DNA of 64,000 nucleotides from Candidatus Rifleibacteriota bacterium. Lineage in GTDB: Bacteria; Muiribacteriota; Ozemobacteria; Ozemobacterales; Ozemobacteraceae. The position numbers and the translations under genes were made by a program. The first letter of the stretch is position 1. Every line of letters begins with the position of its first letter. Below are positions 401 to 63,190 of this stretch, one piece after another. Below the pieces are notes generated by a model. It saw only the letters and a program-made list of their open reading frames with translations. It did no database searches and was not told the DNA's origin. Location of the stretch: contig JAAYNI010000067.1 in the NCBI GenBank assembly GCA_012520995.1, positions 1 through 64,000 of the forward strand. The letters run 5' to 3'.

Positions 401-993
401 AAATAATAGGAATATCGGGGCAATCTGGGGCAGGCAAGTCCGCCTTGGCTGAAATGTTGTCTTCTTTTGGTTTGGGCAGGAATATAGAGGTTGATTCTGT
501 GGGCCATGATTTGCTGGATGAGCCGGAAATATCTGAAAAACTTTGCGGCTATTTTGGCGAGGATATTAAGTCCGAAAAAGGTTTTATAGACCGTAAAAAA
601 CTTGGTGCCAAAGCATTTGCCACAAATAAATCTCTTGAATTTTTAAATTCAGTTATGCATCCGGCTATGAGAGAGCTGGTTCGCAAAGAAATCTCAATTG
701 ATAAAGCAAAGGGAGAGAAGTTTGCGATAATAAATGCGGCTCTTCTCTATAAAATGCGTCTTGATGAAATGTGCGATCTGGTGGTTTATGTGAGATCTAA
801 GCCTGAAGAACGTCTAGAGAGGCTCGTAAACTACAGAAATTGGACAAGAGAGTCAGCCAAAGAGAGACTTTTTTCTCAGGATCCGGAACCGGTTTCAGGA
901 AGCGGTATAGTTTTTATAGACAATAATGGTACTTTAAGTGATTTGCGAAACAAAGCAAAAGCCTTTGCTGAAAAACTCTTGAACAGCTGCTAG
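397..993 (+). CDS. coaE: Dephospho-CoA kinase
   Basis: Phosphorylates the 3'-hydroxyl of dephospho-CoA, the last step of coenzyme A synthesis, in the cytoplasm. The 198-residue length is typical. Visible are the P-loop GQSGAGKS (residues 7-14), the substrate-site segment VDSVGHDLL, the HPAMR motif and the lid region around RNWTRESAKERLFSQDP. The start overlaps the preceding kinase stop (ATGA). The stop codon TAG at 991-993 is also the beginning of a dispersed repeat element (CTAGTGC), so the exact C-terminus may have been set by that element. Nothing else unusual. Confidence 0.93.
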   Translation: MKIIGISGQSGAGKSALAEMLSSFGLGRNIEVDSVGHDLLDEPEISEKLCGYFGEDIKSEKGFIDRKKLGAKAFATNKSLEFLNSVMHPAMRELVRKEISIDKAKGEKFAIINAALLYKMRLDEMCDLVVYVRSKPEERLERLVNYRNWTRESAKERLFSQDPEPVSGSGIVFIDNNGTLSDLRNKAKAFAEKLLNSC

Positions 994-1420
994 TGCTGCT
1001 TTTTCACTAAAAATTGCGTATTAAATGACAATCAGTTAACAAGAACTTTATGCTTATCTGGTGCAGCAACAGCACCACCGTAGCGAGTGTCGAGTTGATT
1101 GTTTGAACTCGCTTGCTAAACTGATACTGCTTTTAGATGTTAATAAATAACCGTTGTTTATCTTTCTGTGACTTTTAAAAATCAACACAAATTGCAAGTC
1201 TATATTAATAGAATGCAATTTAAGTCGATTCTCGAAGTAAGACAGAGATTTTCAAGTTTATTTTTAAAATCAATGGCTTAAGCCGAGAACGAGAAAAAGC
1301 GGACATGCCTTTTTGGACTTTGTGCTCTGTAGGAGCTTTGTCCGCGTATTCTGTGTGTGTTCCGTGGTTTAAAAGGCTAATTTTCCCTCTCTGTCCACGG
1401 TCCACCGACCACTCATCAAT
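990..1420 (+). repeat. Mosaic intergenic repeat, longest copy (locus 1)
   Basis: Fills the gap between coaE and the ytfJ-like gene. In order: a ~94-bp unit from CTAGTGCTGC (990) to CACCGTAG (1083); a short degenerate 7-mer run (GTAGCGA GTGTCGA); an AT-rich block containing TTTTAGATGTTAATAAATAA; a ~200-bp middle part; a 9-mer array ending TTCCGTGGTTT (to 1370); and a 7-mer run GTCCACG GTCCACC GACCACT (1393-1413). The middle part aligns by eye with the reverse complement of 40,422-40,800, which shows that a long unit of ~400 bp exists. No ORF of note and no transposase. Confidence 0.75.
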
Positions 1421-1424
1421 ATTG

Positions 1425-1832
1425 TTATGAATCAGTTTGTGTTTCGGATAAATCTGAAGAAGTTGCAGAAGCGGTATCACTGGCTGGCTTGTCGCCTATT
1501 CCCATAATTTTGTTGTAAATCTGCTCGCCGACTTCTGGTTTGAGTATTTTTTCCCAAATAGTTTGTTTTTCGTTGAAAGAAACAAACTTAACTTCTTTTT
1601 CATTCATCGCAATAAAGGCAACCGGCTCAATAGAAGCTCCGCCCCCTGAACCGCCGCCGAAATCGGGGTCTTTCTCGCTTTGTCCGCCGCCAGCTCCGAA
1701 GCCGAAAGTGACTTTGGTTACTGGAATTACGGTCCATTTATTACAAGTAATGGGTTCTCCTATTACCGTTTTTGAGTTTACGGCCAGCTTAAGCTCGGAG
1801 AGAACAGTTTTAATTAAAGAATCTATGGCCAT
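1425..1832 (-). CDS. YtfJ/GerW-family protein
   Basis: The 135-residue product matches the YtfJ family (GerW in Bacillus, where it is needed for spore germination): N-terminal helix, then TVIGEPI, a glycine-rich segment (FGFGAGGGQSE ... FGGGSGGGASIEPVAFI) and a C-terminal segment ending in a Ser/Thr-rich tail. The start at 1832 (MAIDSL) is preferred over an upstream in-frame start because GGAGG lies 10 nt before it. Family members also occur in non-spore-formers, where their role is unknown. Upstream lies a 24-bp box shared with the next minus-strand gene. No spore genes are seen nearby, so a germination role should not be assumed. Confidence 0.82.
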   Translation of the reverse strand: MAIDSLIKTVLSELKLAVNSKTVIGEPITCNKWTVIPVTKVTFGFGAGGGQSEKDPDFGGGSGGGASIEPVAFIAMNEKEVKFVSFNEKQTIWEKILKPEVGEQIYNKIMGIGDKPASDTASATSSDLSETQTDS

Positions 1833-1888
1833 TGACGAAAAACCTCCAGAGTATATACGGATGCTATAGTAACAAAAAAACATTTTTT

Positions 1889-1912
1889 AACAAAGCAATA
1901 TTTTTTTTGTTT
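1889..1912 (-). promoter_or_regulatory. 24-bp upstream box, copy 1
   Basis: Plus-strand AACAAAGCAATATT followed by T-rich sequence to GTTT. It matches 23 of 24 bases at 2313-2336. On the minus strand it lies just upstream of a plausible promoter for the ytfJ-like gene (TTGTTA, 16-nt spacer, TACTAT). It may be an AT-rich UP element or an operator shared by the two genes. Confidence 0.45.
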
Positions 1913-1960
1913 AAGATTTGTTTTTTTCAGTCAGCTTCCGTAAGCGACAAGCAAAAACTT

Positions 1961-2212
1961 TCAAGCTGATTGTTCTGGTGTAAACATCAGATAGATGGAA
2001 GCTGCAAGACCCATCCAGCACAACAAACTCATAATTATGCGTATTGTTATGTTAGACCAGTAGGAGCTTGGATTTCCCGCTTTGGCATAAACATGCTTGC
2101 CATATTTGAGTTCGCCTTTTTTCCAGTTATTCCAAGCGATTTTTGTGAACTCCAGTCCAATGATTATGAAAATCACACAATAACCGATATACTCAGGGTT
2201 AAATGTAAACAT
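1961..2212 (-). CDS. Small two-TM membrane protein of unknown function
   Basis: 83 residues with two hydrophobic segments (about 8-23 and 60-78) joined by a basic loop (WNNWKKGELKYGKHVYAKAG). The start at 2212 (MFTFNPEY) is preferred because the upstream extension is Lys-rich and not protein-like, and AAGGAAAAG precedes this ATG. I do not recognise the family. It is followed, 128 bp downstream, by the ytfJ-like gene, and both carry the same 24-bp upstream box, which suggests common control. Confidence 0.6.
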   Translation of the reverse strand: MFTFNPEYIGYCVIFIIIGLEFTKIAWNNWKKGELKYGKHVYAKAGNPSSYWSNITIRIIMSLLCWMGLAASIYLMFTPEQSA

Positions 2213-2312
2213 AATTTTCTTTTCCTTTTTTGCTCGGTAAACTTGTATAAACAGCTTTTGCTTTTGATTACTTGTAATCGTGATTATTGTCATATTAACA
2301 AAAAACTTTTGG

Positions 2313-2336
2313 AACAAAGTAATATTTTTTTTGTTT
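2313..2336 (-). promoter_or_regulatory. 24-bp upstream box, copy 2
   Basis: Plus-strand AACAAAGTAATATT followed by a T run to GTTT. It differs at one base from the box at 1889-1912 and sits about 100 bp upstream of the two-TM protein start. See the finding on this pair. Confidence 0.45.
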
Positions 2337-2408
2337 CAAAAGCGTCTTTCTGCTTGCAAGATCTTTGCTGATCATATAAGCTCATAGAGAATGCTGAGAG
2401 GAGGTTAT

Positions 2409-3434
2409 ATGGACATTAGCCTTATTTTAATGCCTTTGCTGGCTGTTTTGGCAGCTGTTGCTGGAATACTTTTCATATTTGCTATAGTAATGGTTTTTCA
2501 GTTTGCAAACGTTGTTATGATTTACATGCGTTCCAAAGCGGCAGACGTAAATATAAGCATGTCTGACCTTATAGGTGCCCAGCTTAGAACAGCCTTTTTG
2601 CCATACAGCGATCCGGTCGGCACTCTTGTTGATGCAACTACCCAAGCGCAAAAAGCTAGAATTAATATTTCTTTTGATACCTTGGAAACTCACATGATGT
2701 CTGGCGGAAATGTAAATGTTCTTGTCAGATCTTTGATACAGGCTTCGCAATCTGGTATTCGCCTTAGCCAGGGGCAGGCTGCTGCTCTGGATTTGGCAGG
2801 TCATAATGTTTTGCAGGCCGTTAATATGTCTATCAACCCTAAAAACATCAGAAGCATAGGCATCAAAGGCGTTGCGAAAGACGGCATAGAGCTTGAGGTG
2901 AATGCAAGTATTACTGTCAGAGCCAATATAGACTCAATGATAGGCGGTGCTGGCGAAGAAACTGTTATTGCTCGCATTAATGAGGCTGTGGAGAGTGTTA
3001 TAGGTTCAGCTGAAAAACATTCTGATATTTTGAACAGACCTGCGCTTATTGCCGAAGAAGTTTTGAGAGCTGGACTTGATGCAGGCAGCGCCTACGAGAT
3101 AATTTCAATAGATATTGCTGATATTAGTGTGCTTCGCAATATCGGTGCCATGCTTAAAAATATGCAAGCGGAAGCTGATAGATGCGTGAGTGAATCTAGA
3201 GCCGAGGGCAGAAAAGCTCTTGCGGAAGCCATAGCTCAAGAAAATAAAGCTGCTGAGCAAGAAGCTAAAGCTAAGGTTTTGGCGGCTGAAATGTATGTTC
3301 CTCTCTCTATTGCAGCCGCTTACAAAAAAGGTTCTTTGTTGGTAGATAGAGACGAGATCTCGGGCAAGCAAGAGAAGGGTCGGTATAGCTATAGACCTGC
3401 AGGGTATGCTTTCTGCGATGACTTTGATCTGTGA
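2409..3434 (+). CDS. FloA-like SPFH (flotillin-like) protein, copy 1
   Basis: 341 residues, the size of bacterial FloA (YqfA/YdfA family), a membrane scaffold of functional microdomains. An N-terminal hydrophobic segment (about residues 5-32) is followed by the SPFH domain (SITVRAN, GGAGEETV, AEKHSDIL) and an Ala/Glu/Lys-rich helical C-terminus (AEGRKALAEAIAQENKAAEQ) that in this family drives oligomerisation. The start at 2409 follows GAGAGGAGG; the in-frame ATG at 2391 lies before that site. A second paralogue starts at 3628. The last ~230 bp are nearly identical at DNA level to that copy, while the N-terminal halves have diverged. A hairpin with a T run follows. Confidence 0.9.
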   Translation: MDISLILMPLLAVLAAVAGILFIFAIVMVFQFANVVMIYMRSKAADVNISMSDLIGAQLRTAFLPYSDPVGTLVDATTQAQKARINISFDTLETHMMSGGNVNVLVRSLIQASQSGIRLSQGQAAALDLAGHNVLQAVNMSINPKNIRSIGIKGVAKDGIELEVNASITVRANIDSMIGGAGEETVIARINEAVESVIGSAEKHSDILNRPALIAEEVLRAGLDAGSAYEIISIDIADISVLRNIGAMLKNMQAEADRCVSESRAEGRKALAEAIAQENKAAEQEAKAKVLAAEMYVPLSIAAAYKKGSLLVDRDEISGKQEKGRYSYRPAGYAFCDDFDL

Positions 3435-3470
3435 TGTGCCTTATTTAGACAAGACTTAATAAAGCAAAAC

Positions 3471-3513
3471 AGCTGATGAGTTCCAAGTTATGGACTTGTC
3501 AGCTTTCTTTTTT
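3471..3513 (+). terminator. Intrinsic terminator after floA copy 1
   Basis: AGCTGATGAGTTCC pairs imperfectly with TGGACTTGTCAGCT across a short loop, followed by TTTCTTTTTT. It implies that the two floA copies are at least partly transcribed separately. Confidence 0.65.
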
Positions 3514-3627
3514 AGGGAAAAATCAAGTAAGAAATTAATGTTTTTAGCCTTAAAAGAACATTTTTCTTGAAAGATTTTACACAATTTTATACCCTCTTAA
3601 ATGTGAACTCCAAAGGAGGCTTTTTTT

Positions 3628-4647
3628 ATGCTTGCTGAGCTATACGCGGCTATAGGTATTGTTTTGGGATTTCTCCTTATTATAGGGGGACTTTTCTTCT
3701 TGACTATGCTGTTGCAGTTTGCCGGCATCATTCAAATTTATATCAAATCTTGGACTACAGGCGTACGTTTAGGTTTTTTTGAACTTCTTGGAGCTAAAGT
3801 CAGAACAAGTACTCTGAACTATTATGATCCTGTTGATACCCTTGTTCAAGCTTTGACCCAGGCACGTAAAGCACATCTTAATATCTCTTTTGACGCTTTG
3901 GAGACTCATATGATGTCAGGCGGCGATGTTAACGCCATTGTCAGAGCCTTGATACAAGCATCGCAGTCAGGTATACGTCTTAGTTTTGGACAGGCTGCCG
4001 CTCTTGACTTGGCTGGACACAATGTTTTGCAGGCTGTCAATATGTCGATTAACCCTAAAAATATCAGAAGCAACAATATCAGAGGAGTTTCAAAAGACGG
4101 CATAGAGCTTGAGGTTTTTGCCAGTATTACTGTCAGAGCCAATATGGATGCAATGATCGGCGGAGCGGGAGAAGAAACTGTTGTGGCTCGTATCAATGAA
4201 GCGGCTGTCAGTATCATAGGCTCAGCAGAAAGACATTCGGATATTTTGAACAGGCCAGCAACTATTTCAGAAGAAATTTTGAAAGCGGGCTTAGATGCTG
4301 GCACTTTCTATGAAATTATTTCAGTTGATATTGCCGATGTTAACGTAATGCGTAACATAGGCGCTATTCTAAAAAATATGCAGGCTGAGGCTGACAGACG
4401 TGTAAGCGAATCTAGAGCAGAAGGCAGAAAAGCTCTTGCGGAAGCCATAGCTCAAGAAAATAAAGCTGCTGAGCAAGAAGCTAAAGCTAAGGTTTTGGCG
4501 GCTGAAATGTATGTTCCTCTCTCTATTGCGGCTGCTTACAAAAAAGGTTCTTTGCTGGTAGATAGAGCCGAGATCTCGGACAAACAAGAGAAGGGTCGGT
4601 ATAGCTACAGACCTGCGGGATATGCTTTCTGTGATGACTTTGATTGA
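3628..4647 (+). CDS. FloA-like SPFH (flotillin-like) protein, copy 2
   Basis: 339 residues with the architecture of the copy at 2409: hydrophobic N-terminus (about 5-30), SPFH domain, Ala/Glu-rich oligomerisation tail, and the same C-terminal end (GYAFCDDFD) including an unusual cysteine. The start follows CAAAGGAGGC. FloA proteins assemble at the inner membrane and help recruit signalling and secretion proteins; two paralogues may form mixed assemblies (inference). The 3' end overlaps the next small ORF by 26 bp. A tract of 107 bp (4423-4529) is identical to 3207-3313 in copy 1, while flanking codons differ, which suggests gene conversion rather than protein-level selection alone. Confidence 0.9.
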   Translation: MLAELYAAIGIVLGFLLIIGGLFFLTMLLQFAGIIQIYIKSWTTGVRLGFFELLGAKVRTSTLNYYDPVDTLVQALTQARKAHLNISFDALETHMMSGGDVNAIVRALIQASQSGIRLSFGQAAALDLAGHNVLQAVNMSINPKNIRSNNIRGVSKDGIELEVFASITVRANMDAMIGGAGEETVVARINEAAVSIIGSAERHSDILNRPATISEEILKAGLDAGTFYEIISVDIADVNVMRNIGAILKNMQAEADRRVSESRAEGRKALAEAIAQENKAAEQEAKAKVLAAEMYVPLSIAAAYKKGSLLVDRAEISDKQEKGRYSYRPAGYAFCDDFD

Positions 4648-4861
4648 GCCGACTGTCTTTCAGCTTGAGATGATGCGTAAAAAGCATTGCAAAGAGCTGA
4701 AACAGCTCGATAAAATGACTGATGCGCAATTTAACGCATTTAAAAGAAATTTTTCCTTCGGTTCAATAGAAGGAATTACAAAAGCTGAAGCCAGAGAGCT
4801 TTTAATGTCGATGTTGGCTCTTAATTTGAAGCTTTCCGAGAGTTACAAAAATAAAAAATGA
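4622..4861 (+). CDS. Small protein of unknown function overlapping floA copy 2
   Basis: 79 residues (or 75 if the second ATG at 4634 is used), charged and helical, with no membrane segment: KKHCKELKQLDKMTDAQFNA ... ITKAEARELLMSMLALNLKL. It overlaps the end of floA copy 2 in another frame and ends 24 bp before the DUF2971 gene, so co-translation is likely. The DNA that forms its start is also present at the end of floA copy 1, where the frame soon stops. I do not recognise the family. Confidence 0.55.
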   Translation: MLSVMTLIEPTVFQLEMMRKKHCKELKQLDKMTDAQFNAFKRNFSFGSIEGITKAEARELLMSMLALNLKLSESYKNKK

Positions 4862-4885
4862 ATTTACTGAATTCTGTCATATTCT

Positions 4886-5746
4886 ATGTTAGAGAATTTT
4901 GAAAAACATCTATATTCAACGATTTTTCCAGAACATTTGCCTAAAACTGTCTATCACTATACAACTCAGGGCGGTATTCTTGGCATAATACAGCAAGGAG
5001 AAATATGGGCTACTCAGGTGGCTTTTCTGAACGATAAAAATGAGGTTTATTTGACCTTCAGACTTTTGGCCAACGAGTTAAATAGAAGGCGCACTGCCAC
5101 TTCTGACCCTTATATGAGAGCCTTGCTTGCTGAGTTGCAAGAAATACTGAAGAAGGTGGACAGAACTCATATATGCATTTCTTCTTTTTGTGAAGAGGGT
5201 GATCTTTTGAGTCAATGGAGAGGTTACGGCAATCAAGGCAAGGGTTATTCTCTTGGCTTCGACTTGAACAAGCTTTTCAGTGCAGCTAAAAAGCAGGATT
5301 TTGTCATATGGCCTTGTGTTTATGACAATTCGACACACAATGAGCTTGTATCTTATCTTGTGGATTGTTGGCTGCAAAAGTATGGCAAGGGCCGAGCGGA
5401 ATATGACAATATGGTAGATGACATAACAAGCAACGTTTGCAGACTGGCTCCGATACTTAAAGACAGAAACTTTAAAGAAGAAAAAGAATGGCGTCTTGTG
5501 AATGCGGCTGTTGATGTAGCACCTTCTGATTTTTCGTTTCGCGAGGGGGCCTTTGCGATTATACCTTATCTTGCTTTCAAGCTTGGTTTTCGAGAGAGTG
5601 AAAATCAATGCCTTGAAAAGATAGTTTTGGGTCCCACTCCTCATAAAAAACTGGCGCTTAATAGCACTAGAATGTTCTTGCAGGCTAATGGGCTGAAAAA
5701 TACGGAAGTTGTTCTGTCCTCGATTCCCTTCAGAAATTGGAAGTGA
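4886..5746 (+). CDS. DUF2971-family protein
   Basis: 286 residues. Family hallmarks visible are the N-terminal VYHYTT (residues 22-27) followed by GILGIIQQGEIWAT and FLNDKNEV, then ISSFCEEGDLLSQWRGYG, and the C-terminal KEEKEWRLV. The function is not established. The pattern of a Tyr-His-Tyr-Thr strand, a Gly/Ile-rich helix and a late Glu resembles ADP-ribosyltransferase-fold proteins such as DarT, but this is my inference from motif order only. No SD-like sequence stands out before the ATG. The gene lies between the floA pair and a radical SAM gene, with tight spacing on both sides. Confidence 0.85.
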   Translation: MLENFEKHLYSTIFPEHLPKTVYHYTTQGGILGIIQQGEIWATQVAFLNDKNEVYLTFRLLANELNRRRTATSDPYMRALLAELQEILKKVDRTHICISSFCEEGDLLSQWRGYGNQGKGYSLGFDLNKLFSAAKKQDFVIWPCVYDNSTHNELVSYLVDCWLQKYGKGRAEYDNMVDDITSNVCRLAPILKDRNFKEEKEWRLVNAAVDVAPSDFSFREGAFAIIPYLAFKLGFRESENQCLEKIVLGPTPHKKLALNSTRMFLQANGLKNTEVVLSSIPFRNWK

Positions 5747-5750
5747 ACTC

Positions 5751-7016: not shown

Positions 7017-7031
7017 TTAGAACATACCTAC

Positions 7032-7102: not shown

Positions 7103-7106
7103 CTTA

Positions 7107-7145: not shown

Positions 7146-7184
7146 GCTTTGTGATGAATTTCTCTAATTAAATTAAAACTAAAC

Positions 7185-18884: not shown

Positions 18885-18902
18885 GCGGCTATTTTATCAT
18901 AG

Positions 18903-19077
18903 CAAGTGCTGCTTTTTCTCTAAAACTTTCCTGCCAGCCTTTCAAAATTCACAAGACAATATCTGCTGAAAAAATATGCATCGCACTAGAGTGGCGAGTG
19001 GAGCGTGGCGAGTTTTAATATCAATAAAAAGATCTCTTTTCTGAGCTTTTCCGTGTATTCTGTGTGTTCCGTGGTTT
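18903..19077 (+). repeat. Mosaic intergenic repeat (locus 2)
   Basis: CAAGTGCTGCTTTTTCTC at 18903 opens the unit, GCACTAG closes it at 18983-18989 (87 bp). Next come the 7-mer run GTGGCGA GTGGAGC GTGGCGA (18991-19011) and the 9-mer array CCGTGTATT CTGTGTGTT CCGTGGTTT (19051-19077). The AT-rich middle block is missing, so this is a shortened copy. It abuts the M48 peptidase gene. Confidence 0.75.
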
Positions 19078-19119: not shown

Positions 19120-19986
19120 ATGCAAAATTTCAACTTTAATTCTTTAAAAGAATTTGACAATCTTCGTGCCGAAAGCTTTCAACATCCTTGGGATAGACAA
19201 GCGGTTACAGCTTTGCAAAGCATTCCTGGTTTTGAGTTCTTAGTTAAAAAGCTTATGGAAATTGGTTTCGAGCAGTTTTTTCGTATGACTAATTTGGCCA
19301 GCAATATACACCTGACTGGAAAAATGTTGCCGGAAGTTCAATATTTGCTTGAAAAAGCTTGCAATATACTTTCTGTTCCTAAGCCGGATCTTTATTTGCA
19401 AACTTCTCCGCTTCCTAACGCTTATACATATGGAGATACAAATCCCTTCGTAGTTGTGACATCTGGACTTTTGGATTTGATGGAACCAGAAGAACTTTTG
19501 TGCGTTTTTGCCCATGAAGTTGGACATATCAAGTGCGGCCATGTTTTATATAAAACTATGGCAAGGCATTTTAAATTTTTGCTTGAGCTGGCTTCGCAGG
19601 CTACATTAGGCTTTTCTTCATTGATAAGCGGCGGGTTGCAGGTTGCGATGTTCGATTGGGAACGCAAATCTGAACTTTCAGCTGACAGAGCGGCTTTGAT
19701 TGCTGTACAAAGCCAGAGCGTAGTCAACAGAATGTATATGAAGTTGGCTGGAGCTACCTCGAAATATGCTTCAAAACTTGATGAAAAAGAGTTCTTTGCT
19801 CAAATAAGAAATTATGAGGATGCGACTGACGAGTCATTTCTGAATAAAGCTTTTATCTCGTTGGTAACTATCCAGATGTCACATCCCTTTGTCATAGTTA
19901 GAGCCAAACATTTAGATAATTGGATAACTTCTGGTGAATTTACAAAACTGACTGATATACCTGTTGAAGAAGTGCGGGCATTTTAG
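19120..19986 (+). CDS. M48-family zinc metallopeptidase
   Basis: 288 residues. The zinc site HEVGHIKCGH (HExxH) and the third-ligand segment ERKSELSADRA are clear, so catalysis is probably intact. There is no N-terminal signal or obvious membrane helix bundle as in HtpX, so it is likely cytoplasmic or peripheral. I prefer the ATG at 19120 (MQNFNFNSLKEF) with GGAGACGGGG upstream; in-frame GTG 19090 and ATG 19105 are alternatives, but the stretch there derives from the repeat. The stop TAG (19984-19986) is also the start of the next repeat element. Confidence 0.88.
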   Translation: MQNFNFNSLKEFDNLRAESFQHPWDRQAVTALQSIPGFEFLVKKLMEIGFEQFFRMTNLASNIHLTGKMLPEVQYLLEKACNILSVPKPDLYLQTSPLPNAYTYGDTNPFVVVTSGLLDLMEPEELLCVFAHEVGHIKCGHVLYKTMARHFKFLLELASQATLGFSSLISGGLQVAMFDWERKSELSADRAALIAVQSQSVVNRMYMKLAGATSKYASKLDEKEFFAQIRNYEDATDESFLNKAFISLVTIQMSHPFVIVRAKHLDNWITSGEFTKLTDIPVEEVRAF

Positions 19987-20312
19987 TGCTGTGTTGCAGC
20001 TGAAAGTTACCTATTTAATGCTAAGCAAGTCAACAAACTCTTTATGCGTATCTGATGCAACTACCGCACTAGAGGGGGGCGTAGGGAGTAGGGGGTAGTA
20101 AAATTGTTCAGGCTCAATTGCTAAAACTAATAATTGTTTTTAGATGTTAATAAATGTGCGTTGTTTTTGTAGTTTCTGTCCCTCGTGTCACTCACCACTC
20201 GCCATTCATCATGGTTCTTAGGCTATTCCCCACACCCTAACCCCTACTCCCTTTGAGTTTTCGCCACTCGTCACTCGTGTTAATTGTCCTCTCTGTCCAC
20301 TGCCCATCGAAC
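19983..20312 (+). repeat. Mosaic intergenic repeat (locus 3)
   Basis: The 90-bp unit runs from TTAGTGCTG (19983) to CCGCACTAG (20072). A 7-mer run follows (GTAGGGA GTAGGGG GTAGTAA), then the AT-rich block with GGCTCAATTGCTAAAACT and TTTTAGATGTTAATAAAT, then four more 7-mer tracts: CACTCAC CACTCGC CATTCAT near 20200, CCCTAAC CCCTACT CCCTTTG near 20235, CACTCGT CACTCGT near 20265, and GTCCACT GCCCATC GAACACT near 20297. No coding sequence in this 350-bp gap. Confidence 0.75.
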
Positions 20313-23104: not shown

Positions 23105-23232
23105 AAAGCACGAAATACACGAAAGAGGCCAGGTCAAAAATTCTGATTATGCACTAGCAGAATTTTTGACCTGGTTTCTCCTTATCTGTGGATAATTTTT
23201 CTATCCGCTGCCCACTATTCACTAATCACTGT
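23105..23232 (-). repeat. Mosaic repeat remnant with long hairpin (locus 4)
   Basis: Begins with CACGAAATACACGAAA (9-mer array vocabulary, minus orientation), contains the perfect hairpin at 23129-23174 whose loop reads GCACTAG, then ATCTGTGGATAAT as in locus 6, and the 7-mer run GCCCACT ATTCACT AATCACT (ending near 23230). Confidence 0.55.
23129..23180 (+). terminator. Terminator-like hairpin after pullulanase gene
   Basis: CCAGGTCAAAAATTCTG (23129-23145) pairs perfectly over 17 bp with 23158-23174, 12-nt loop, followed by TTTCTCCTT. The stem is longer than needed for termination. Confidence 0.65.
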
Positions 23233-31247: not shown

Positions 31248-32622
31248 TGCTCAGATGTTGGCTCAACTTTGTAATGGAGAGCTTCTTAATGATAACGGCA
31301 GAACTTTTAAGACTCTTTCCATAGACAGCAGGCGTATTGACAGTGCTTGTCTTTTTGTCGCTTTAAAAGGTGAAAACCATGACGCTCACGATTTTGTGGT
31401 TTCAGCGATTGAAAAGGGAGCGGCGGGTGTTTTGATTTCCGAGATTCGCCCTGAATATGACTTGCATTCAAGCTGTTTCATAAAATGTGCGGATACTCTC
31501 GCTTCTTTACAGTTTTTGGCCAAAAATCTTAGAGCTGTGACAAAGTCCCGCTTTATTGGTGTTACGGGCAGTAACGGTAAAACAACAGTCCGCTCTATGA
31601 TTGCTCATTTGCTTTCAGAGAAATATTCTTGTTACTCGACAGAAGGAAATTTGAACAATCATATAGGCTTGCCCCTGACTATTGCTAATTCACCTGGAGA
31701 TGAAGATTTCACGGTTTTGGAAATGGGTATGAACAATGAAGGGGAGATAAGATTCTTGGCTGACATAGCAAAGCCAGATATAGCAGTTATAACCAATGTC
31801 GGTACTGCTCACATTGGAAATTTTGAATCGGCAGAAGGCATAGCAGAAGCTAAAGCCGAGATACTTGAAGGTCTGAGACCTGGCGGTTTTGCAATATTGC
31901 CTGGAGATACGCCAATGAAACGTTTTTTTCATCTTCCAGAAGGGGTTAAGGCAATATATTTCGGAACTTCTCCCGATAATAACGCTTTGATAGAAAATAT
32001 CCAAACCGAGTCTTATTCATCGACCTTTGATTTGACTATAGACAAACAGAAGATGAAGTTTCAGATAAATATTCCAGGGACTCACAATGTTTATAATGCA
32101 GCAGCAGCTTTAGCTCTCTGTCATAATGTGGGATTATCCTTTGATTATCTTGCTGAAAGAATTAAGAGTTTTGTGCCTGTGGGAGCTCGTCTTGAGATTC
32201 TGGAACGTGACGGAGTCCGTATTTTATTGGACTGTTACAACGCAAATCCCGATTCTATGCGAGAAGCTCTGACATATTTGGCTTCTTGCAAATCGCCGAA
32301 AATAGCGGTTCTTGGTGAGATGCGCGAACTTGGCTCCATGTCGGTTCACTTGCATAAAAAAATAGGCGCTTATGCGGCAGAATGTGAGCTGGATTGGCTT
32401 ATTTGCTTAGGAAAAGACGCTGAATATATAGCTTCTCAAGCTATAGAATGCGGTTTTTCTCCAGAGCGAGCAATATCGTTAAATTCTTTCGACAAAGCAG
32501 CCGATCTCTTAAGAGAGCTTCTGAAAGAAGGCGCTGTTGTCTTGTTTAAAGCAAGTCGGGGAATGCGTTTTGAAAAAATAGTGCAAAAGCTCTGGTCAGA
32601 CGTTGGCAAAGACCTGCACTGA
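31234..32622 (+). CDS. murF: UDP-MurNAc-tripeptide-D-Ala-D-Ala ligase
   Basis: 462 residues. N-terminal MurF domain (SIDSRRIDSACLFVALKGE), ATP loop GVTGSNGKTTVRSM, EMGMNNEGEI, TNVGTAHIGNF, and the C-terminal LDCYNANPDSMREAL and VLGEMRELG. Completes the UDP-MurNAc-pentapeptide that MraY uses. Fourteen-nt overlap with murE. A mosaic repeat begins one base after its TGA, separating it from mraY by 355 bp. Confidence 0.96.
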   Translation: MIEINAQMLAQLCNGELLNDNGRTFKTLSIDSRRIDSACLFVALKGENHDAHDFVVSAIEKGAAGVLISEIRPEYDLHSSCFIKCADTLASLQFLAKNLRAVTKSRFIGVTGSNGKTTVRSMIAHLLSEKYSCYSTEGNLNNHIGLPLTIANSPGDEDFTVLEMGMNNEGEIRFLADIAKPDIAVITNVGTAHIGNFESAEGIAEAKAEILEGLRPGGFAILPGDTPMKRFFHLPEGVKAIYFGTSPDNNALIENIQTESYSSTFDLTIDKQKMKFQINIPGTHNVYNAAAALALCHNVGLSFDYLAERIKSFVPVGARLEILERDGVRILLDCYNANPDSMREALTYLASCKSPKIAVLGEMRELGSMSVHLHKKIGAYAAECELDWLICLGKDAEYIASQAIECGFSPERAISLNSFDKAADLLRELLKEGAVVLFKASRGMRFEKIVQKLWSDVGKDLH

Positions 32623-32940
32623 CTAGTGCGGCCTTTTCTCTAAGAGTTGCCTGTAAAATCTTATCTTGCTGTTTAACAGCTTAGTCTATTTCAGATGCTA
32701 CTGTCCCACTAGTTAGTGGGTAGTGGGTGGTGGTAGTGAAATTCTTTAGGCTCAATTGCTGAAAATTGGCAATTGCTTGAAAATCTAGATAAATAACTCG
32801 TTTGAAGTAAGACGCAGACAAAAATTATAGAATATAATTTTTCAAAAAGCATTGGTTCTTCATCTGTGTAAATCTGTGTAATCTGTGGATAATATGTAGT
32901 TTGGAATTTTTTCGTGTATTCCGTGTGTTCTGTGGTTCCA
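32623..32940 (+). repeat. Mosaic intergenic repeat (locus 6)
   Basis: 90-bp unit CTAGTGCGGC (32623) to CCCACTAG (32712); 7-mer run AGTGGGT AGTGGGT GGTGGTA; AT-rich block with GGCTCAATTGCTGAAAAT; GAAGTAAGACGCAGA as in locus 1; a run ATCTGTGTAA ATCTGTGTA ATCTGTGGA; and the 9-mer array TTCGTGTATTCCGTGTGTTC then TGTGGTT. It separates murF from mraY inside the wall cluster. No gene in the gap. Confidence 0.75.
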
Positions 32941-34072: not shown

Positions 34073-34116
34073 AACAAACAGGGATTAGTGGATAGAAAAA
34101 TAATCCGAAGATTACG

Positions 34117-34153
34117 CAGACGGGATTTTAAGCACAGCTTAAAATCCCGTCTG
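34117..34153 (+). terminator. 17-bp perfect hairpin after mraY
   Basis: CAGACGGGATTTTAAGC, loop ACA, then the perfect complement to 34153; GTTTTTG lies ~15 nt later. It sits in a short repeat remnant: AATCCGAAGATTACGCAGAC before it and ACTAGTGCCCACT near 34184. It probably stops transcription between convergent genes, although the T run is not adjacent. Confidence 0.55.
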
Positions 34154-34203
34154 TGGTTAAAGGGTTTTTGCTTCTAAAACAAATACTAGTGCCCACTGTT
34201 AAT

Positions 34204-40421: not shown

Positions 40422-40800
40422 GAAGAACCACGAACCACAAGAAAAACACGAACTAAAAATCTTTTGGAACCACGGAATACACAGAATACACGGAAAAACA
40501 TCTAAAACATCTGGAACAGCAAAACTAGCTGCTTTTGCTAAGTTTCGACTTAAGCCAGCGATTCTACAAGTAAACTTGCAAATTTCTATCTTTCCCCAAG
40601 ACTTGTTCTAAATTGTATTTTATTGCATAGAATAGCAATTTGTTTTTATTTTTGCCAAGAAACATTAAAGAAGCAGAAAGGTAGGGGGCTACAGAAAGAT
40701 AAACAACGCTTATTTATTATCTTCTTAAAGCAGCTGTTAGTTTTAGCATTGAGTTCTAAACCATTTAACTCGCACGCGACACTCATCACTCGCCACTTTT
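40422..40800 (-). repeat. Mosaic intergenic repeat, reverse copy (locus 8)
   Basis: Read on the minus strand: 7-mer run matching CACTCAT CACTCGC (40771-40799), the AT-rich block GAACTCAATGCTAAAACT and AATAAATAAGCGTTGTTTAT, a ~200-bp middle part that aligns with locus 1 (for example TGGCTTAAG), the 9-mer array at 40468-40497, and a further array of CACGAA-type units (40431-40455). The 90-bp left unit is missing; the copy ends near the rsmA stop. No gene in this gap. Confidence 0.72.
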
Positions 40801-41589
40801 CTTAAATAGCAGCAGGTATTGTTCCGGCGAGATGTTCTCTGGTCTGGCTTCAGGGGAGAGGTTCATTGAAATAAAGCGATCTGCGAAGTCGGTATTGGGG
40901 AATCCCTTTTTTAGACGGGGTAAAACCATCTTGCGTCTTTGGGTGAAAAGAACGGAGACTTTTTTCAAAACTTCAATTCTTTCTTTTTTTTCTTCTTGCG
41001 TGAGTAACAGAGGCTCCAAGGCTAAAAGTTTGCTCATGACTTTGGGTTTAGGGATGAAGTTCTCTGGAGAAAATTTTTTGCCGGTTTGTGCTTTGGCGAA
41101 AAAGGCTCTATGTACGGAGAGATAGCCGTATTCTTTTTCGTTCACTGAGGCTGCGGCTTTGACGGCTACTTCCTCTTGAAGCAAAAATACAAGTCGGCGT
41201 GGATTTAAGGAACTTTCCAGTATCTGTGTGATGATATGGGTTGCTGAACAATATGGGAGATTGCCGCAAATGTAGAAGTCATTTGCTGGCTTTGGCAACT
41301 TCGAAAAGTCAGTTTTTAAGAAGTCTCCAAAAATAATGCGATCGGGCGATGCGATTTTTTCTAAGTCTTCTTTTAGTCTTTCATCTATCTCAAAAAGCAG
41401 ATAATCGTCAGTTTTTTCTATTATTTTTTCAGATAAAGCGCCTTTGCCTGGGCCTATTTCCCAGATTGTGGCATTGTCAGCAGGGGCTAATAGTTCTATT
41501 AAGGAATCGCATAGGTTTGGATTAATGCAAAAATTTTGTCCTAGAGATTTTTTGTGCTGAAAATCTCGTGATGATTGCTTATCTCTCAT
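40786..41589 (-). CDS. rsmA: 16S rRNA dimethyladenosine transferase
   Basis: 267 residues; dimethylates A1518 and A1519 of 16S rRNA late in 30S assembly. Motifs: KKSLGQNFCINPNL, WEIGPGKGALSE (SAM site), catalytic NLPYCSATHI and the C-terminal FTQRRKMVLPRLKKG. It starts 4 nt inside the end of the S4-domain gene, so the two are coupled. Its 3' end runs into the mosaic repeat. Confidence 0.96.
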   Translation of the reverse strand: MRDKQSSRDFQHKKSLGQNFCINPNLCDSLIELLAPADNATIWEIGPGKGALSEKIIEKTDDYLLFEIDERLKEDLEKIASPDRIIFGDFLKTDFSKLPKPANDFYICGNLPYCSATHIITQILESSLNPRRLVFLLQEEVAVKAAASVNEKEYGYLSVHRAFFAKAQTGKKFSPENFIPKPKVMSKLLALEPLLLTQEEKKERIEVLKKVSVLFTQRRKMVLPRLKKGFPNTDFADRFISMNLSPEARPENISPEQYLLLFKKSGE

Positions 41590-54404: not shown

Positions 54405-54435
54405 AACACTGACAACGACTGAATGGAGATAATGG

Positions 54436-56790: not shown

Positions 56791-56800
56791 GCATAGAGAT

Positions 56801-57139: not shown

Positions 57140-57172
57140 TTTTATATACAGCAACAGAATAGGACACACCAC

Positions 57173-58195: not shown

Positions 58196-59129
58196 CGGAC
58201 TGCTTGTTGTAGACAAGCCAAAAGGCTGGACTTCTCATGATGTGATTGCGAAGATCCGAAGAAAGTTTAAGGTCAAATGTGGCCATTCGGGAACATTGGA
58301 TCCTATGGCAACAGGTGTTTTGCTGGTTTTTACCGAGAAGGCTCTGAAGCTTTTAAGTCTTATTGAGCCTGAAGAAATGGATAAAACCTACAGTTTTGTA
58401 GTCACTTTGGGTGCAACTACCGACACTTATGATGCTGAGGGCACAGTAGTCAGCCGTTTTGAAGGCGAGATTGATTTCACTCCTGAAGAACTTGAAAAAG
58501 CCGTTAAGGCTTTCACAGGAACTATTAAACAGACACCGCCAGATTTTTCGGCAGTCAAAATAAAAGGTCAGCCTGCTTACAAGCTTGCCAGAAAAGGCAA
58601 AGAAGTAACAATACCTCCCAGAGAAGTGCATGTGGAGTCTTTGGAATGCTTAGAAGATTTTGTCGAGAACGGAGAACGCAAGCTTCGTATGCGAGTCTCC
58701 TGTTCAAGGGGGACTTATATAAGATCCTTGGCTCATGATTTAGCAGCAAATCTGGGATTTGGCGGGCATCTCTCTTTTCTTAGACGCGAGAGGGTGGGGC
58801 GCTGGTCAGAAGATATGGCTATAAGCATGGAAATCTTGGAAAACACTGAAAACTTTGCTTTAACACCTTCTTTTATACAAGATAAGGAGCTTACTGGTTT
58901 TCCTAAACTTATAGTAACAGAGGATGGTGAGAGAAATGTTTCAAATGGAAGAAAAATTTTCTTATCCGATATTCTTTCTGTGAAACCAGGTGAAAAAGAT
59001 TCTCCTTATACAGATGTTCTCAGTAAAGACGGAGACCTTATTGCGGTTTATGAGATTACTTCGGAGTCTTCTTCTGACGGAACTTTGTCGTGTTTTAAAC
59101 CTGTAAAGGTGTTTAATGCTGGCAACTAA
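58170..59129 (+). CDS. truB: tRNA pseudouridine55 synthase
   Basis: 319 residues. LLVVDKPKGWTSHDV, the catalytic GHSGTLDPMATGVLLV with the conserved Asp, TYSFVVTLGATTDTYDAEG, QTPPDFSAVKIKGQPAYKLA and SCSRGTYIRSLAHDLA. The C-terminal part is a PUA-like domain. Overlaps nrnA by 26 nt and ribF by 14 nt, so translation is coupled. Confidence 0.96.
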   Translation: MKVTQGEVSGLLVVDKPKGWTSHDVIAKIRRKFKVKCGHSGTLDPMATGVLLVFTEKALKLLSLIEPEEMDKTYSFVVTLGATTDTYDAEGTVVSRFEGEIDFTPEELEKAVKAFTGTIKQTPPDFSAVKIKGQPAYKLARKGKEVTIPPREVHVESLECLEDFVENGERKLRMRVSCSRGTYIRSLAHDLAANLGFGGHLSFLRRERVGRWSEDMAISMEILENTENFALTPSFIQDKELTGFPKLIVTEDGERNVSNGRKIFLSDILSVKPGEKDSPYTDVLSKDGDLIAVYEITSESSSDGTLSCFKPVKVFNAGN

Positions 59130-60081
59130 CTGCGAAATACACGAACTTTGTGCTTTGCCTGAACCTTTAATGCCAGCAGTTTATGCTATTGGAGTTTTTG
59201 ACGGAGTACATATAGGCCATAAGGAATTGATTCGCCGTATGGCGGAATATGCTCAGGACAACTCTTTTGTGCCAGGAGTTTTTACTTATTCGAATTCGCC
59301 GCGAGAAATGCTTTCTCCTGAGACCTTTCCTGGCTATATAACTGATTTTTCTGAAAAGTTGAGGTTGCTTGAAGAAGCTGGTGCAAAAAGAATAGTATAC
59401 AGAACCTTTGATAGAGATTTTGCTTCCAAAAGCGCTGAATATTTTATACAGGAAGTACTTCTCAAAAAACTTGCTGCTAAAGCTGTTTTTGTGGGTTTTA
59501 ACTTTAGATTTGGCTCAGGCAGAACCAAAGGAGCGGAATATCTTTCAGAAGCCCTCAAAATAGCAGGTTGTGAATGTTTTATTATGGAACCCTATGAGTA
59601 TAGAGAAATGCAGATTTCTTCTACATTAATTCGCAGAAAGATTCATAGAGGCGATTTTCCATGCGTTGAGTTTATGCTCGGACGTAAAATTAGCTTTGAG
59701 GGCAAAGTTATAAGCGGCAATCGTATTGCGAGACGTTTGGGTTATCCCACCGCCAACATTTCAGTTGAAGATTCACATCTTGTATTGCCTGCCAACGGTG
59801 TTTATTCTGCAGTTGCAGAAGTTGCCGGGAAAAAATATGCGTCTGCAGCTAATCTGGGCATGCGACCTACTTTTAACGGTAAAGTTAAACTTCTTGAGGT
59901 TCACCTCTTTGACTTTTCCGGAGACTTATACGGAAAAGTCATCAAAGTCAGATTTATCAATAAAATACGTGACGAGGTTAAATTTCCATCCGAAGAAGCT
60001 TTAAAAGAACAGCTTTTCCAAGATGAAGAGAACATCCGACAAATGCTTGCAACGCCTCTTCTGCCTCATTGCCAAGGCTAG
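59116..60081 (+). CDS. ribF: Bifunctional riboflavin kinase / FAD synthetase
   Basis: 321 residues. FAD synthetase domain first (AIGVFDGVHIGHKELIR, FVGFNFRFGSGRTKGAEYL, ISSTLIRRKIHRGD), riboflavin kinase domain second (GNRIARRLGYPTANISVE, NLGMRPTFNG, EVHLFDFSGDLYG). Makes FMN and FAD. Last gene of the operon in its usual position after truB. Its TAG stop (60079-60081) is part of the left end of a mosaic repeat. Confidence 0.96.
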   Translation: MLATNCEIHELCALPEPLMPAVYAIGVFDGVHIGHKELIRRMAEYAQDNSFVPGVFTYSNSPREMLSPETFPGYITDFSEKLRLLEEAGAKRIVYRTFDRDFASKSAEYFIQEVLLKKLAAKAVFVGFNFRFGSGRTKGAEYLSEALKIAGCECFIMEPYEYREMQISSTLIRRKIHRGDFPCVEFMLGRKISFEGKVISGNRIARRLGYPTANISVEDSHLVLPANGVYSAVAEVAGKKYASAANLGMRPTFNGKVKLLEVHLFDFSGDLYGKVIKVRFINKIRDEVKFPSEEALKEQLFQDEENIRQMLATPLLPHCQG

Positions 60082-60270
60082 TGCTTTGTTGCAGCCAATA
60101 CTTCTCTATTCAATGACAAGCAAGACAACAAATTATTCATGGTTATTTGATGCAACAATCGCACTAGAGGGAGTAGGGCGTAGGGGGTAGAGGGTAGTCA
60201 AATACTTTTCAACTCAATTTTTGGACAGACAACTGCTTTAAGATATTAAAAGTTGTTTACATAATAAAAA
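60078..60270 (+). repeat. Mosaic intergenic repeat (locus 10)
   Basis: The clearest 90-bp unit: CTAGTGCTTTGTTGCA at 60078-60093 is nearly the reverse complement of TGCAACAATCGCACTAG at 60151-60167. Then the 7-mer run GTAGGGC GTAGGGG GTAGAGG GTAGTCA, and the AT-rich block (CAACTCAATTTTTGGACAG, ACTGCTTTAAGAT, AAAAGTTGTTTAC). Confidence 0.78.
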
Positions 60271-60305
60271 TTATTTTGATGATGTATTTTTTTCGTTTTT
60301 TTTAT

Positions 60306-60325
60306 CTTGTTTCATGTGAAACAAG
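60306..60325. promoter_or_regulatory. parS-like palindrome
   Basis: CTTGTTTCATGTGAAACAAG: two 9-bp arms around TG. The inner 16 bp (60308-60323) match the bacterial parS consensus TGTTTCACGTGAAACA at 15 positions. It could instead be an operator for brnQ. Confidence 0.5.
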
Positions 60326-60350
60326 AAAATCATTTTAATATTTACATGAG

Positions 60351-60378
60351 TTGATCTTGGCAAAGATTATGATAAAAT
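60351..60378 (+). promoter_or_regulatory. Probable brnQ promoter
   Basis: TTGATC, 16-nt spacer, TAAAAT (60373-60378), 34 bp before the ATG; AAGGAATGAGG precedes the start codon. Confidence 0.6.
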
Positions 60379-60412
60379 CTTTTTGTAGAAAAAATACAAG
60401 GAATGAGGATAT

Positions 60413-62029
60413 ATGAAAAAATTTACTGACGTAATAGTCTTGGGATTTGCTCTCTTTTCTATGTTCTTAGGTGCAGGAAATCTGATTTTTCCGCCTACGC
60501 TGGGGCAAATAGCAGTATCTAAGTGGTGGTTGGCTCTGATAGGATTTTTAGTTACAGGGGTTGGGTTGCCTGTTTTGGGAGTGCTTGCAGTAACTTTCAG
60601 AGAAGGCAATTTGGATAAATTTACCAGAGGTATGCCTACAATAGTCAATACTATTTTTATTTCTACCATAATCTTGATTATAGGACCTCTCTCCGCGATT
60701 CCCAGAACAGCTGCAACTACTTATGAAATAGGCATTGCTCCGGTAGTAGAAAAAATGGCGGTTTCAAAAAAAGCCAAGATAGAAGCTTGGAAAACGGAAA
60801 AGAGTGCTCAGCAGCCATATGAACTGACAGAGAAGGCAAGAGCTGCTCATAAGAAGGGACTGAAACTTGCCGAGCTTGGCGAAACGCATGAAGCTGTTGA
60901 AACAGCAGCAACTGCAGCAACTGCAGCAACTGCTGCCAAAAGACCTTCTTCCCCATTCTTGCTTTATTTGACTTCCTTTATTTATTTTGCAATAGTTACT
61001 CTTTTTGTTTTAAATCCAGGGAAAATAATAGATCAATTAGGCGCTGTTCTGACACCTGCTTTGATAATAATTTTAGCTCTCTTGATAGGCCGAGGAATTG
61101 TGGCTCCGGTAGGAAAGCCTATGCCTTATGAGCAGAAAGTTGCGGGAAGTCCAACTGCAGCAGCCGATCTTAAGTTCGCGAATGCGACCAATTTCCAGAG
61201 GGGTTTCAAAGAAGGGTACCAAACGATGGACGCTTTGGCCTCCATTTTGTTTACAACTATAGTTATAGCTGGCGTTCTTGAAAGAGGCTATAAAGGACGC
61301 AGCATGCTTTTGATTACCCTTGCGGCAGGTCTTGTAGCTTGTTTTGGTTTAGCCTGTGCCTATGGAGGGTTGTCTTATATAGGAGCCTGTTCCAGCAGCG
61401 ATCCTGTGAGATTTCCGCCTACTTTGACCAGGACACAGTTGCTGGTTAAATTGACTGATGCTTTGTGGGGCAATTTGGGAACCTATATATTGGCAGCCGC
61501 CATTGCTTTAGCTTGTCTGACTACGGCTATAGGTATGACTGCTACTGCTGCTAAGTATTTCAGCGATAAATTTGCGGATGATATAAGCTATAGGGCTACA
61601 ACATTGATTATAGTTATAATCAGCTTTTTCCTTTCAACTCTCGGAGTTGACAGCATCATCAGAATAGCTGGTCCTGTTTTGGAAATAATGTATCCTATCG
61701 CCATAGTCTTTATTATACTGAATCTTTTTGATAAATTTATTCCCAATTCAGGCTACTATGTGGGCGCTGTTATAGGCGCTGTGACTGTCAGCTTGTTACA
61801 GGTTTGGTCTTCTGCTCAGGGCCTGATACAGAAGTTCTTTACAAGCGACATTATTTCCCCTTCTACCTTAGAGGCCTTAAACTTTGAGGCGACGGCGGTC
61901 TTTGTGGAAAGTCTGCCTCTTGAGAAATGGGGCTTTCCATGGGTTGTACCTGCCGTTATAACTTCTATAGTTTTCGGTTTAGTTTGCCAGATAAGGAAAT
62001 CTTTGGAGGCCAAGGGCAAAGAAGCGTAA
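60413..62029 (+). CDS. brnQ: Branched-chain amino acid transporter with inserted loop
   Basis: 538 residues, ~100 longer than typical BrnQ (about 430-440). The N-terminal signature FSMFLGAGNLIFPPTLG is clear, with about 12 TM segments of the LIVCS family and GPLSAIPRTAATTYEIG. A hydrophilic insert occupies roughly residues 112-178 (KAKIEAWKTEKSAQQPYELT ... GETHEAVETAAT) and contains a 9-bp tandem repeat. Imports Leu, Ile and Val with Na+ or H+. A terminator follows, so it is likely monocistronic. Confidence 0.93.
   Translation: MKKFTDVIVLGFALFSMFLGAGNLIFPPTLGQIAVSKWWLALIGFLVTGVGLPVLGVLAVTFREGNLDKFTRGMPTIVNTIFISTIILIIGPLSAIPRTAATTYEIGIAPVVEKMAVSKKAKIEAWKTEKSAQQPYELTEKARAAHKKGLKLAELGETHEAVETAATAATAATAAKRPSSPFLLYLTSFIYFAIVTLFVLNPGKIIDQLGAVLTPALIIILALLIGRGIVAPVGKPMPYEQKVAGSPTAAADLKFANATNFQRGFKEGYQTMDALASILFTTIVIAGVLERGYKGRSMLLITLAAGLVACFGLACAYGGLSYIGACSSSDPVRFPPTLTRTQLLVKLTDALWGNLGTYILAAAIALACLTTAIGMTATAAKYFSDKFADDISYRATTLIIVIISFFLSTLGVDSIIRIAGPVLEIMYPIAIVFIILNLFDKFIPNSGYYVGAVIGAVTVSLLQVWSSAQGLIQKFFTSDIISPSTLEALNFEATAVFVESLPLEKWGFPWVVPAVITSIVFGLVCQIRKSLEAKGKEA
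60905..60931 (+). repeat. 9-bp tandem repeat inside brnQ
   Basis: GCAGCAACT three times, perfect, in frame, encoding repeated Ala-Ala-Thr units; a partial fourth follows. Confidence 0.9.
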
Positions 62030-62035
62030 AGTTCC

Positions 62036-62071
62036 AAGGTTCAGACGCTTTTGGCGTCTGAACCTTTTTTT
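62036..62071 (+). terminator. Intrinsic terminator after brnQ
   Basis: AAGGTTCAGACGC pairs perfectly with GCGTCTGAACCTT (62054-62066), loop TTTTG, then a T run to 62071. Confidence 0.93.
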
Positions 62072-62089
62072 AGCTAAGGAGAAATTTAA

Positions 62090-63109
62090 ATGAAAGTTTT
62101 GTTAACGGGCGGTGCAGGCTTTATTGGCAGTCATTGTGCGGTGGAGTTGTACAATGAAGGTTTTGAGCCTTATATTTTGGACAATTTTGTAAATAGCAAG
62201 CCCGCAGTTGCAGACAGAATCCGCAAGATTACCGGCAAAGATATTCCGCTGTTTGAAGGGGATATTCTTGATACCGCTTATTTGGAACAGATTCTTGAGG
62301 AAAATAAAATAGAAGCTGTTATGCACTTTGCGGCTCTCAAATCTGTTGGCGAGTCGGTAGGAATGCCTCTTGAATATTATAAAAACAATGTGGCAGGAAC
62401 TCTTTCCATACTTGAAGCTATTAAGCGTTGTTCCGTGAAAAACTTTCTTTTCAGTTCCTCTTGCACTGTTTACGGTGAAAATGCTCTTTCACCAGTAACA
62501 GAAGGCTTGCCTCTTGGAGGAACGACTAATCCTTATGGAACAAGCAAGTTCATGGTTGAACTCATTTTGAGGGATTTCAAACGTGCTTTCAAAGACTTTC
62601 AACTCATTTCCCTGCGCTATTTTAACCCAATTGGAGCTCATCCGTCAGGGCATATTGGGGAAGACTCTAGAACAAAGCCTACTAATCTGATGCCTCTTAT
62701 TATGAAAGCGGTTTCAGGTCAAATAAAAGAGTTGAGCGTTTTTGGCAATGATTACCCTACGCATGATGGAACTTGTATCAGAGATTATATTCATGTGGTT
62801 GACTTGGCTAGAGCCCATGTGGCTGCTATAAAGAGGGCTAAGTTTTCTCCGGATGAGGTTGTGACTTACAACATTGGAACAGGTCATGGTTTTTCAGTAA
62901 TGGAGATGCTTGAAACATTTGAAAAGACCACAGGTGAAACAGTACCCTTTAAAATAGTTGGACGCAGACCTGGGGATTTAACAGAAATATATGCTGATCC
63001 TTCAAAAGCTTTAAATGAATTGGGATGGAAGGCAGAAAAAACTTTGGAAGATATGTGTAAAGATTCTTGGAATTGGCAGACTCTGAACCCTGAAGGCTAC
63101 CCTGATTAA
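62090..63109 (+). CDS. galE: UDP-glucose 4-epimerase
   Basis: 339 residues, extended SDR. NAD site LLTGGAGFIGSH (residues 4-15), HFAALKSVGESV, catalytic Ser in FSSSCTVYG and YxxxK in PYGTSK, RYFNPIGAHPSGHIGEDS, and CIRDYIHVVDLARAH. Interconverts UDP-glucose and UDP-galactose for surface polysaccharide or galactose use. CTAAGGAG precedes the ATG. Confidence 0.96.
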   Translation: MKVLLTGGAGFIGSHCAVELYNEGFEPYILDNFVNSKPAVADRIRKITGKDIPLFEGDILDTAYLEQILEENKIEAVMHFAALKSVGESVGMPLEYYKNNVAGTLSILEAIKRCSVKNFLFSSSCTVYGENALSPVTEGLPLGGTTNPYGTSKFMVELILRDFKRAFKDFQLISLRYFNPIGAHPSGHIGEDSRTKPTNLMPLIMKAVSGQIKELSVFGNDYPTHDGTCIRDYIHVVDLARAHVAAIKRAKFSPDEVVTYNIGTGHGFSVMEMLETFEKTTGETVPFKIVGRRPGDLTEIYADPSKALNELGWKAEKTLEDMCKDSWNWQTLNPEGYPD

Positions 63110-63190
63110 TACAGTGACTAGTGGGCAGAGAGGGCGACGATGCCAGTGATAAGTGACGAAAACTTCAAGGGAGTAGGGGAGCTTGTCCGA
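63110..63190 (+). repeat. Mosaic repeat fragment (locus 11)
   Basis: GACTAGTGGGCAGAG just after galE, then a degraded 7-mer run (GCGACGA TGCCAGT GATAAGT) and GGGAGTAGGGG. No TIR unit is complete and I see no gene before tRNA-Pro. Confidence 0.4.

Follow-up and report, generated by a model that had tools for sequence, protein, structure and literature searches.

The repeat mosaic in the intergenic gaps of this genome is best read, with a probability of roughly 0.7, as consisting chiefly of remnants of a single family of non-autonomous elements (MITEs) that proliferated in this Riflebacteria lineage and were moved in trans by an IS5-type transposase. We call the element non-autonomous because of (i) its copy number, (ii) the lack of an open reading frame, (iii) its terminal inverted repeats, (iv) a sharp left boundary, (v) its restriction to one genome and (vi) an empty site. 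The copy number, the inverted ends, the sharp left boundary, target-like outer tetramers, the fixed order of the parts, the coincidence with stop codons and one empty site are observed; mobility, an IS5 origin, mobilisation in trans and a role of selection we infer.

The window, i.e., the whole stretch of 64,000 nt analysed, comprises bases 1-64000 of contig C27 (201,502 bp), and the genome amounts to 2.84 Mb in 101 contigs. Its MraY is 70-74% identical to that of Riflebacteria, Candidatus Rifleibacterium amylolyticum among them, and less than 55% identical to all else, which places the organism in the Riflebacteria. As relatives we searched 39 further genomes from the phylum, including 23 from the same family, in collections that contain no congener. 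Genes were called with a home-made codon-score caller, which overlooked some of them (e.g., ksgA, 40786-41589). Profile counts refer to 1.09 Mb and end-matrix counts to ~1.46 Mb of the 2.84-Mb genome, and reversed sequence served as the control for profile counts.

Parts, copy number and boundaries of the element

An nhmmer profile of the ~92-bp unit, termed module A, was built on the five window copies (989, 18902, 19982, 32622 and 60077). In 1.09 Mb it recovered 83 copies, versus 0 when the sequence was reversed, and a calibrated covariance-model scan found 150 copies in the whole 2.84-Mb genome. The copies have diverged to about 65-70% identity, with indels. A consistently open reading frame was sought among them and none was found, which speaks against hidden coding; Rfam matches within the window were limited to tRNAs. 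An earlier note, made from the window sequence, had proposed an element without an ORF, either non-autonomous or structural/regulatory, and a genome-wide profile search for it. The search bore fruit, and the non-autonomous option is supported by the 150 copies without an open frame, the terminal inverted repeats and the empty murF-mraY site described below.

The same note had placed one shared set of parts at eleven non-coding spots. Module A is present at five of these (990, 18903, 19983, 32623 and 60078) and absent from the other six. The spot at 40422 has the 7-mer array, the AT-rich block (block B) and the 9-mer array without the unit, and those at 23105, 26334, 34100, 41881 and 63118 have only arrays, hairpins or, by profile, nothing. 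The parts located in the window are:

989-1083 (+), module A (left inverted end and variable segment); TAG at 991-993 is the stop codon of coaE (397-993)
1098-1191 (+), block B (AT-rich)
1345-1374 (+), 9-mer array ending TTCCGTGGTTT
1397-1413 (-), 7-mer array, just downstream of a minus-strand gene ending at 1425
18902-18994 (+), module A
18990-19006 (+), 7-mer array
19049-19073 (+), 9-mer array
19982-20077 (+), module A; TAG at 19984-19986 is the stop codon of an HtpX-like gene
20080-20096 (+), 7-mer array
20103-20182 (+), block B
23108-23123 (-), 9-mer array of the CACGAAA type, without the unit
23214-23230 (-), 7-mer array, without the unit
32622-32717 (+), module A, immediately following the murF stop TGA (32620-32622); site empty in six relatives
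32715-32731 (+), 7-mer array
32741-32818 (+), block B
32862-32877 (+), 9-mer array of the ATCTGTG type
32919-32934 (+), 9-mer array of the TTCYGTG type
40471-40495 (-), 9-mer array
40669-40764 (-), block B without module A
40781-40797 (-), 7-mer array containing the stop TGA (40786-40788) of ksgA (40786-41589)
60077-60172 (+), module A; TAG at 60079-60081 is the stop codon of ribF
60172-60195 (+), 7-mer array
60202-60269 (+), block B, a weak match (E=0.009)

The 7-mer array at 40781-40797 includes the ksgA stop codon and so provides the protein's end. Elsewhere in the window, a 300-nt direct repeat (76% identity) between 2610-2909, in the flotillin-like gene FloA, and 3826-4125, in the next ORF, suggests a tandem gene duplication.

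Block B, with the consensus ATTGTTTAGACTCAATTGCTGAAACTGATAACTGCTTTAAGATGCTGATAAATAA, occurs 97 times in 1.09 Mb, 96 of them intergenic, and is missing from the control. It follows module A in 39 cases, at a spacing of 100-149 bp in all but one (194 bp), and stands without it in the other 58, in keeping with the earlier statement that copies lose parts rather than whole elements. Strict patterns matched 52 TTCYGTG-type arrays and 108 intergenic 7-mer arrays versus one inside a gene. For the 7-mer pattern the in-gene count (1/109) was used in place of the reversed-sequence control, which is invalid there because a reversed array fits the same pattern. On the same strand the unit precedes the 7-mer array in 40 cases versus 1 and the 9-mer array in 17 versus 1, and the 7-mer precedes the 9-mer array in 14 versus 0; the fixed order of the four parts, first noticed in the window, is borne out by these counts. 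At least one part lies in 100 of the 170 intergenic gaps of at least 300 bp (59%), compared with 0.3% of gaps shorter than 40 bp. The view that the family occupies most long gaps holds for the number of gaps but not for their bases, strictly matched sequence making up ~11% of all intergenic bases.

Alignments between copies begin sharply at the CTAG of module A, run past the inner GCACTAG and, in the best copy pairs, continue across the 7-mer array and block B to a length of 170-285 bp. The left end recurs inverted (~26 bp) at the far side in about 25 copies. Since this inverted copy lies beyond block B, the ~90-bp unit is the left third of a longer element. The unit with inverted ends described in the earlier note thus exists, but its two ends are not the outer ends, the far terminal repeat being 255-330 bp from the left one. 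In full, the element measures 255-330 bp and consists of the left inverted end (CTAG)TGCTGTGTTGCANCTAAAACTT, followed by a variable segment (~65 bp) with an inner, inverted GCACTAG at its close, the 7-mer array, block B and an inverted right end. The element end sequence is (CTAG)TGCTKTGTTGCANCTAAAACTT. At the right end there is a variant, (CTAG)TAGACTGTTGCA; AGACTGTTGCA, the core of an IS5-family end, is present in some of the right ends.

When a matrix of 27 positions was used to find ends, there were 176 in 1.46 Mb versus 9 in controls; a retrained right-end matrix was dropped after drifting to the control rate. Most of the 26 convergent end pairs are 255-330 bp apart, and the longer ones (416, 444 and 574 bp) have extra sequence, which in two cases inspected consisted of nonamer arrays or hairpins. 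Downstream of block B an inverted right end was found in 12 of 39 copies with both A and B and in 7 of 57 with B only (controls, 0 and 1), a recognisable right end being missing in about 70% of the A+B copies. Units also stand back to back with one common CTAG (C92:217814-217997, C66:12582-12763, C70:61674-61823 and C84:73932-74059), as expected if one element had been inserted at the end of another. Since three of these four pairs are located at the ends of contigs, the assembly may have collapsed recent copies that are nearly identical.

Outer tetramers, stop codons and distribution

Among 158 well-scored ends the outer tetramer is CTAG in 116 (73%), TTAG in 11 and CTGG in 6, with CTAA and CAAG also present. 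Tabulated IS5 targets comprise CTAG (15/24), CTAA (3), TTAG (3) and CAAG (1) (PMC5493358). The outer tetramers resemble these targets and follow the form Py-T-A-Pu, mostly as CTAG. A target duplication was looked for: many copies have CTAG at both ends, but CTAG is palindromic and the copies are mutated, and the non-palindromic end tetramers disagree. A TA duplication read from one copy (C56:46051-46359) was abandoned, a CTAG target being the better fit to the outer tetramers of the full set of ends.

The gene context, missing from the earlier note, is that the left end lies at a stop codon or a short way behind it. In 31 of 112 ends the left TAG of the element is the in-frame stop of the upstream gene (30 TAG, 1 TAA), in the window that of coaE, ribF and the HtpX-like gene. 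Ends face the 3' side of a gene in 72 cases versus the 5' side in 30, and of these 72 about 55 are no more than about 12 bp from the stop. Outside the elements there are 263 non-coding CTAG sites, 27 of them stop codons; with the 31 occupied stops added to both counts, the expected stop share is 58/294 (~20%) versus 28% observed (p=0.026). CTAG targeting together with the removal of in-gene insertions explains most of the coincidence with stop codons, and the residual excess may be due solely to ancestral gaps that were shorter than today's. Units point away from a gene end in 62 of 76 cases. Their orientation in tandem gene pairs is biased 30 versus 5 (p=2e-5), and the end-based count is weaker at 33 versus 15 (p=0.013). 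The locus at 40422, whose inversion the earlier note took as an argument against simple local duplication, is no exception to this, for the gene before it, ksgA, likewise lies on the minus strand.

In the mechanism that we propose, an IS5-type transposase acting in trans would move the element into CTAG-like sites. As CTAG contains TAG, insertion at a stop codon of this form would spare the protein, giving a CTAG-targeting element a simple route into a gene end with the product unchanged. Insertions within genes would be purged by selection, so that surviving copies would gather at gene ends. The 7-mer and 9-mer arrays would be tandem-repeat cargo or neighbours that change in length and take up further small insertions. 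Nine genes were checked for C-termini shortened by insertion, with no clear difference from other genes.

The spacing between murF and mraY is 355 bp here; six relatives have 22-25 bp at this place, and two rumen genomes 65-68 bp. The extra DNA starts directly after the murF TGA and consists of module A, the 7-mer array, block B and 9-mer arrays. This locus is the one empty site, with a single junction resolved and relatives at family level. Synteny with 800 kb of Rifleibacterium amylolyticum was too diverged, giving just 2 informative pairs. Module A and its 23-bp end are absent from the 39 other genomes of the phylum (23 in the same family); nine named Riflebacteria gave only weak scores, at most about 18 bits, and the 23-bp end was not found in IMG/VR viral contigs. 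Of what the earlier note counted as support, the many intergenic copies were found in this genome and in none of the 39 others, and an empty site in six relatives.

The nonamer array is distributed differently from module A. Strict matches number 128 here and 35 in one other genus of the family, with 0 in the other member of that second genus, 1 in a further genome of the phylum and 0 in 23 genomes reached through non-Riflebacteria loci. Another 23 stretches occur in IMG/VR contigs of 42-70% GC and close nearly always in TTCCGTGG. The nonamer array is a separate cross-lineage repeat, contained in or adjoining these elements, and in the IMG/VR contigs it looks like a cross-lineage repeat without a known carrier. 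The parts thus do not form a single exclusive family, as both another genus and unrelated viral contigs have the array but not the unit. Across IMG/VR contigs L210-L232 the array TTCCGTGTATTCCGTG(T/G)NTTC is almost letter-identical. Small hairpins are found within nonamer arrays (window 34095-34160 and 23115-23175, e.g., CGGGATTTTAAGCACAGCTTAAAATCCCG; TTCACAATTTTATGTTGCTTAAAATTGTTCC in the IMG/VR contig L219), which gives the impression that tandem arrays serve as targets for tiny insertions.

Putative source of mobility and alternative readings

The genome has one IS5-family transposase gene (C93:4368-5224), in an apparently intact IS with ends GGGTCTGTTGAACATT and TA flanks. These ends are not significantly similar to those of the element, so this transposase is a candidate only. 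An IS with matching ends was not found in this genome; the assembly is fragmented, and the IS partner may therefore be missing. The right end TAGACTGTTGCA matches the core of GAGACTGTTGCA, the end of the IS5-family member ISPg4 and likewise of MITE464 of Porphyromonas gingivalis (PMC4596501). The element looks, and probably works, like an IS5-type MITE, judging from its sequence; we word it in this way, rather than classing it as one, because no IS found in the genome has common ends with it.

The polar order of the parts could also be a chronology, in which three families are independent of each other, namely module A (about 92 bp, bounded by CTAG on either side), block B together with the 7-mer array, and the 9-mer arrays, and the newest arrival lands by the stop and pushes the older ones downstream. 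With 58 of the 97 copies of block B lacking module A, the two may be separate elements. In addition, 7-mer arrays without module A lie within 15 bp of stops in 19 of 74 cases facing a gene end versus 1 of 27 otherwise, 9-mer arrays are present in a genus without module A, and a solo module A, with a gene end at its inner side, stands at C27:86214-86119. Independent arrival nevertheless fits poorly with the near-constant A-B spacing of 100-149 bp, with inverted ends that bracket A and B together, and with three copies (C4:3323, C56:6308 and C8:16820) that are 85-89% identical through module A, the 7-mer array and block B. We consider such layering possible but unlikely. That stop codons, or the transcript ends that follow them, are preferred landing sites of small elements and of heptamer and nonamer arrays alike, with new material added beside the stop in fixed order and strand and the intergenic regions forming a layered insertion record, seems to us quite improbable.

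A regulatory or structural 3' UTR element, kept for a role in the transcript such as termination or mRNA stability, would suit a strand and position that follow the upstream gene (62/76 away from the gene end; 30 versus 5 in tandem pairs). It is made very unlikely by the lack of consensus RNA pairs for the unit (RNAalifold, 72 copies; single folds disagree), by the divergence of the units to about 65-70% with indels, and by their absence at the same genes in all relatives. High copy number, extragenic location, inverted ends and a mosaic layout are also properties of REP/BIME-type elements, which are moved by a RAYT (Y1) transposase. However, PF01797 has no match in this genome, the same search being positive in control genomes, and the ends are long (~26 bp) with a defined target tetramer rather than short hairpins; this origin we can practically dismiss. 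Integron attC sites, considered for the inverted ends beside stops, were put aside in view of the housekeeping nature of the flanking genes in the window.

Comparison with described repeats

On the MITE reading, a high-copy mobile family in Riflebacteria would account for parts of most long intergenic gaps here. This family of small, gene-less, probably transposable elements, with internal tandem repeats and a tendency to lie at gene ends, appears to be previously undescribed. Our search of the open-licence literature found no description of such repeats in Riflebacteria, which is weak evidence of novelty.

Correia/NEMIS, RUP and ERIC are likewise small (<200 bp), gene-less, high-copy and AT-rich, with inverted ends and a short target motif, and RUP is tied to IS630, with inferred mobilisation in trans (PMC2229807). 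They have TA termini, whereas the present element has CTAG-type outer tetramers, is longer and contains tandem arrays, and its genome has no IS630-type transposase (0 matches to PF13358). The TAACTGA arrays of Beggiatoaceae, Cyanobacteria and Bacteroidetes are also abundant intergenic direct repeats of a heptamer, patchy across distant lineages and with no known transfer mechanism (PMC4679880). Theirs is another heptamer, however, mostly just upstream of start codons, and none is described inside a transposable element (PMC4679880).

Most similar among the elements already described are BrickBuilt and MITE464/MITEPgRS of Porphyromonas gingivalis, intergenic MITEs with a leader and tail that have inverted ends and with internal tandem repeats (PMC4596501). 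The ends of MITE464 and ISPg4 are IS5-like (GAGACTGTTGCA), as are those of the element here, and most BrickBuilt copies, too, have lost one end, both being kept in 4 of 19 (PMC4596501). Their repeats, in contrast, are 23 or 41 nt long, they number about 10-20 copies and their outer end sequences are different; their description mentions no stop-codon placement, inner inverted end or A/B modularity (PMC4596501). The element described here thus differs from BrickBuilt and MITE464 in its heptamer interior, its roughly tenfold copy number, its inner inverted end, the modularity of A and B and its placement at stop codons.
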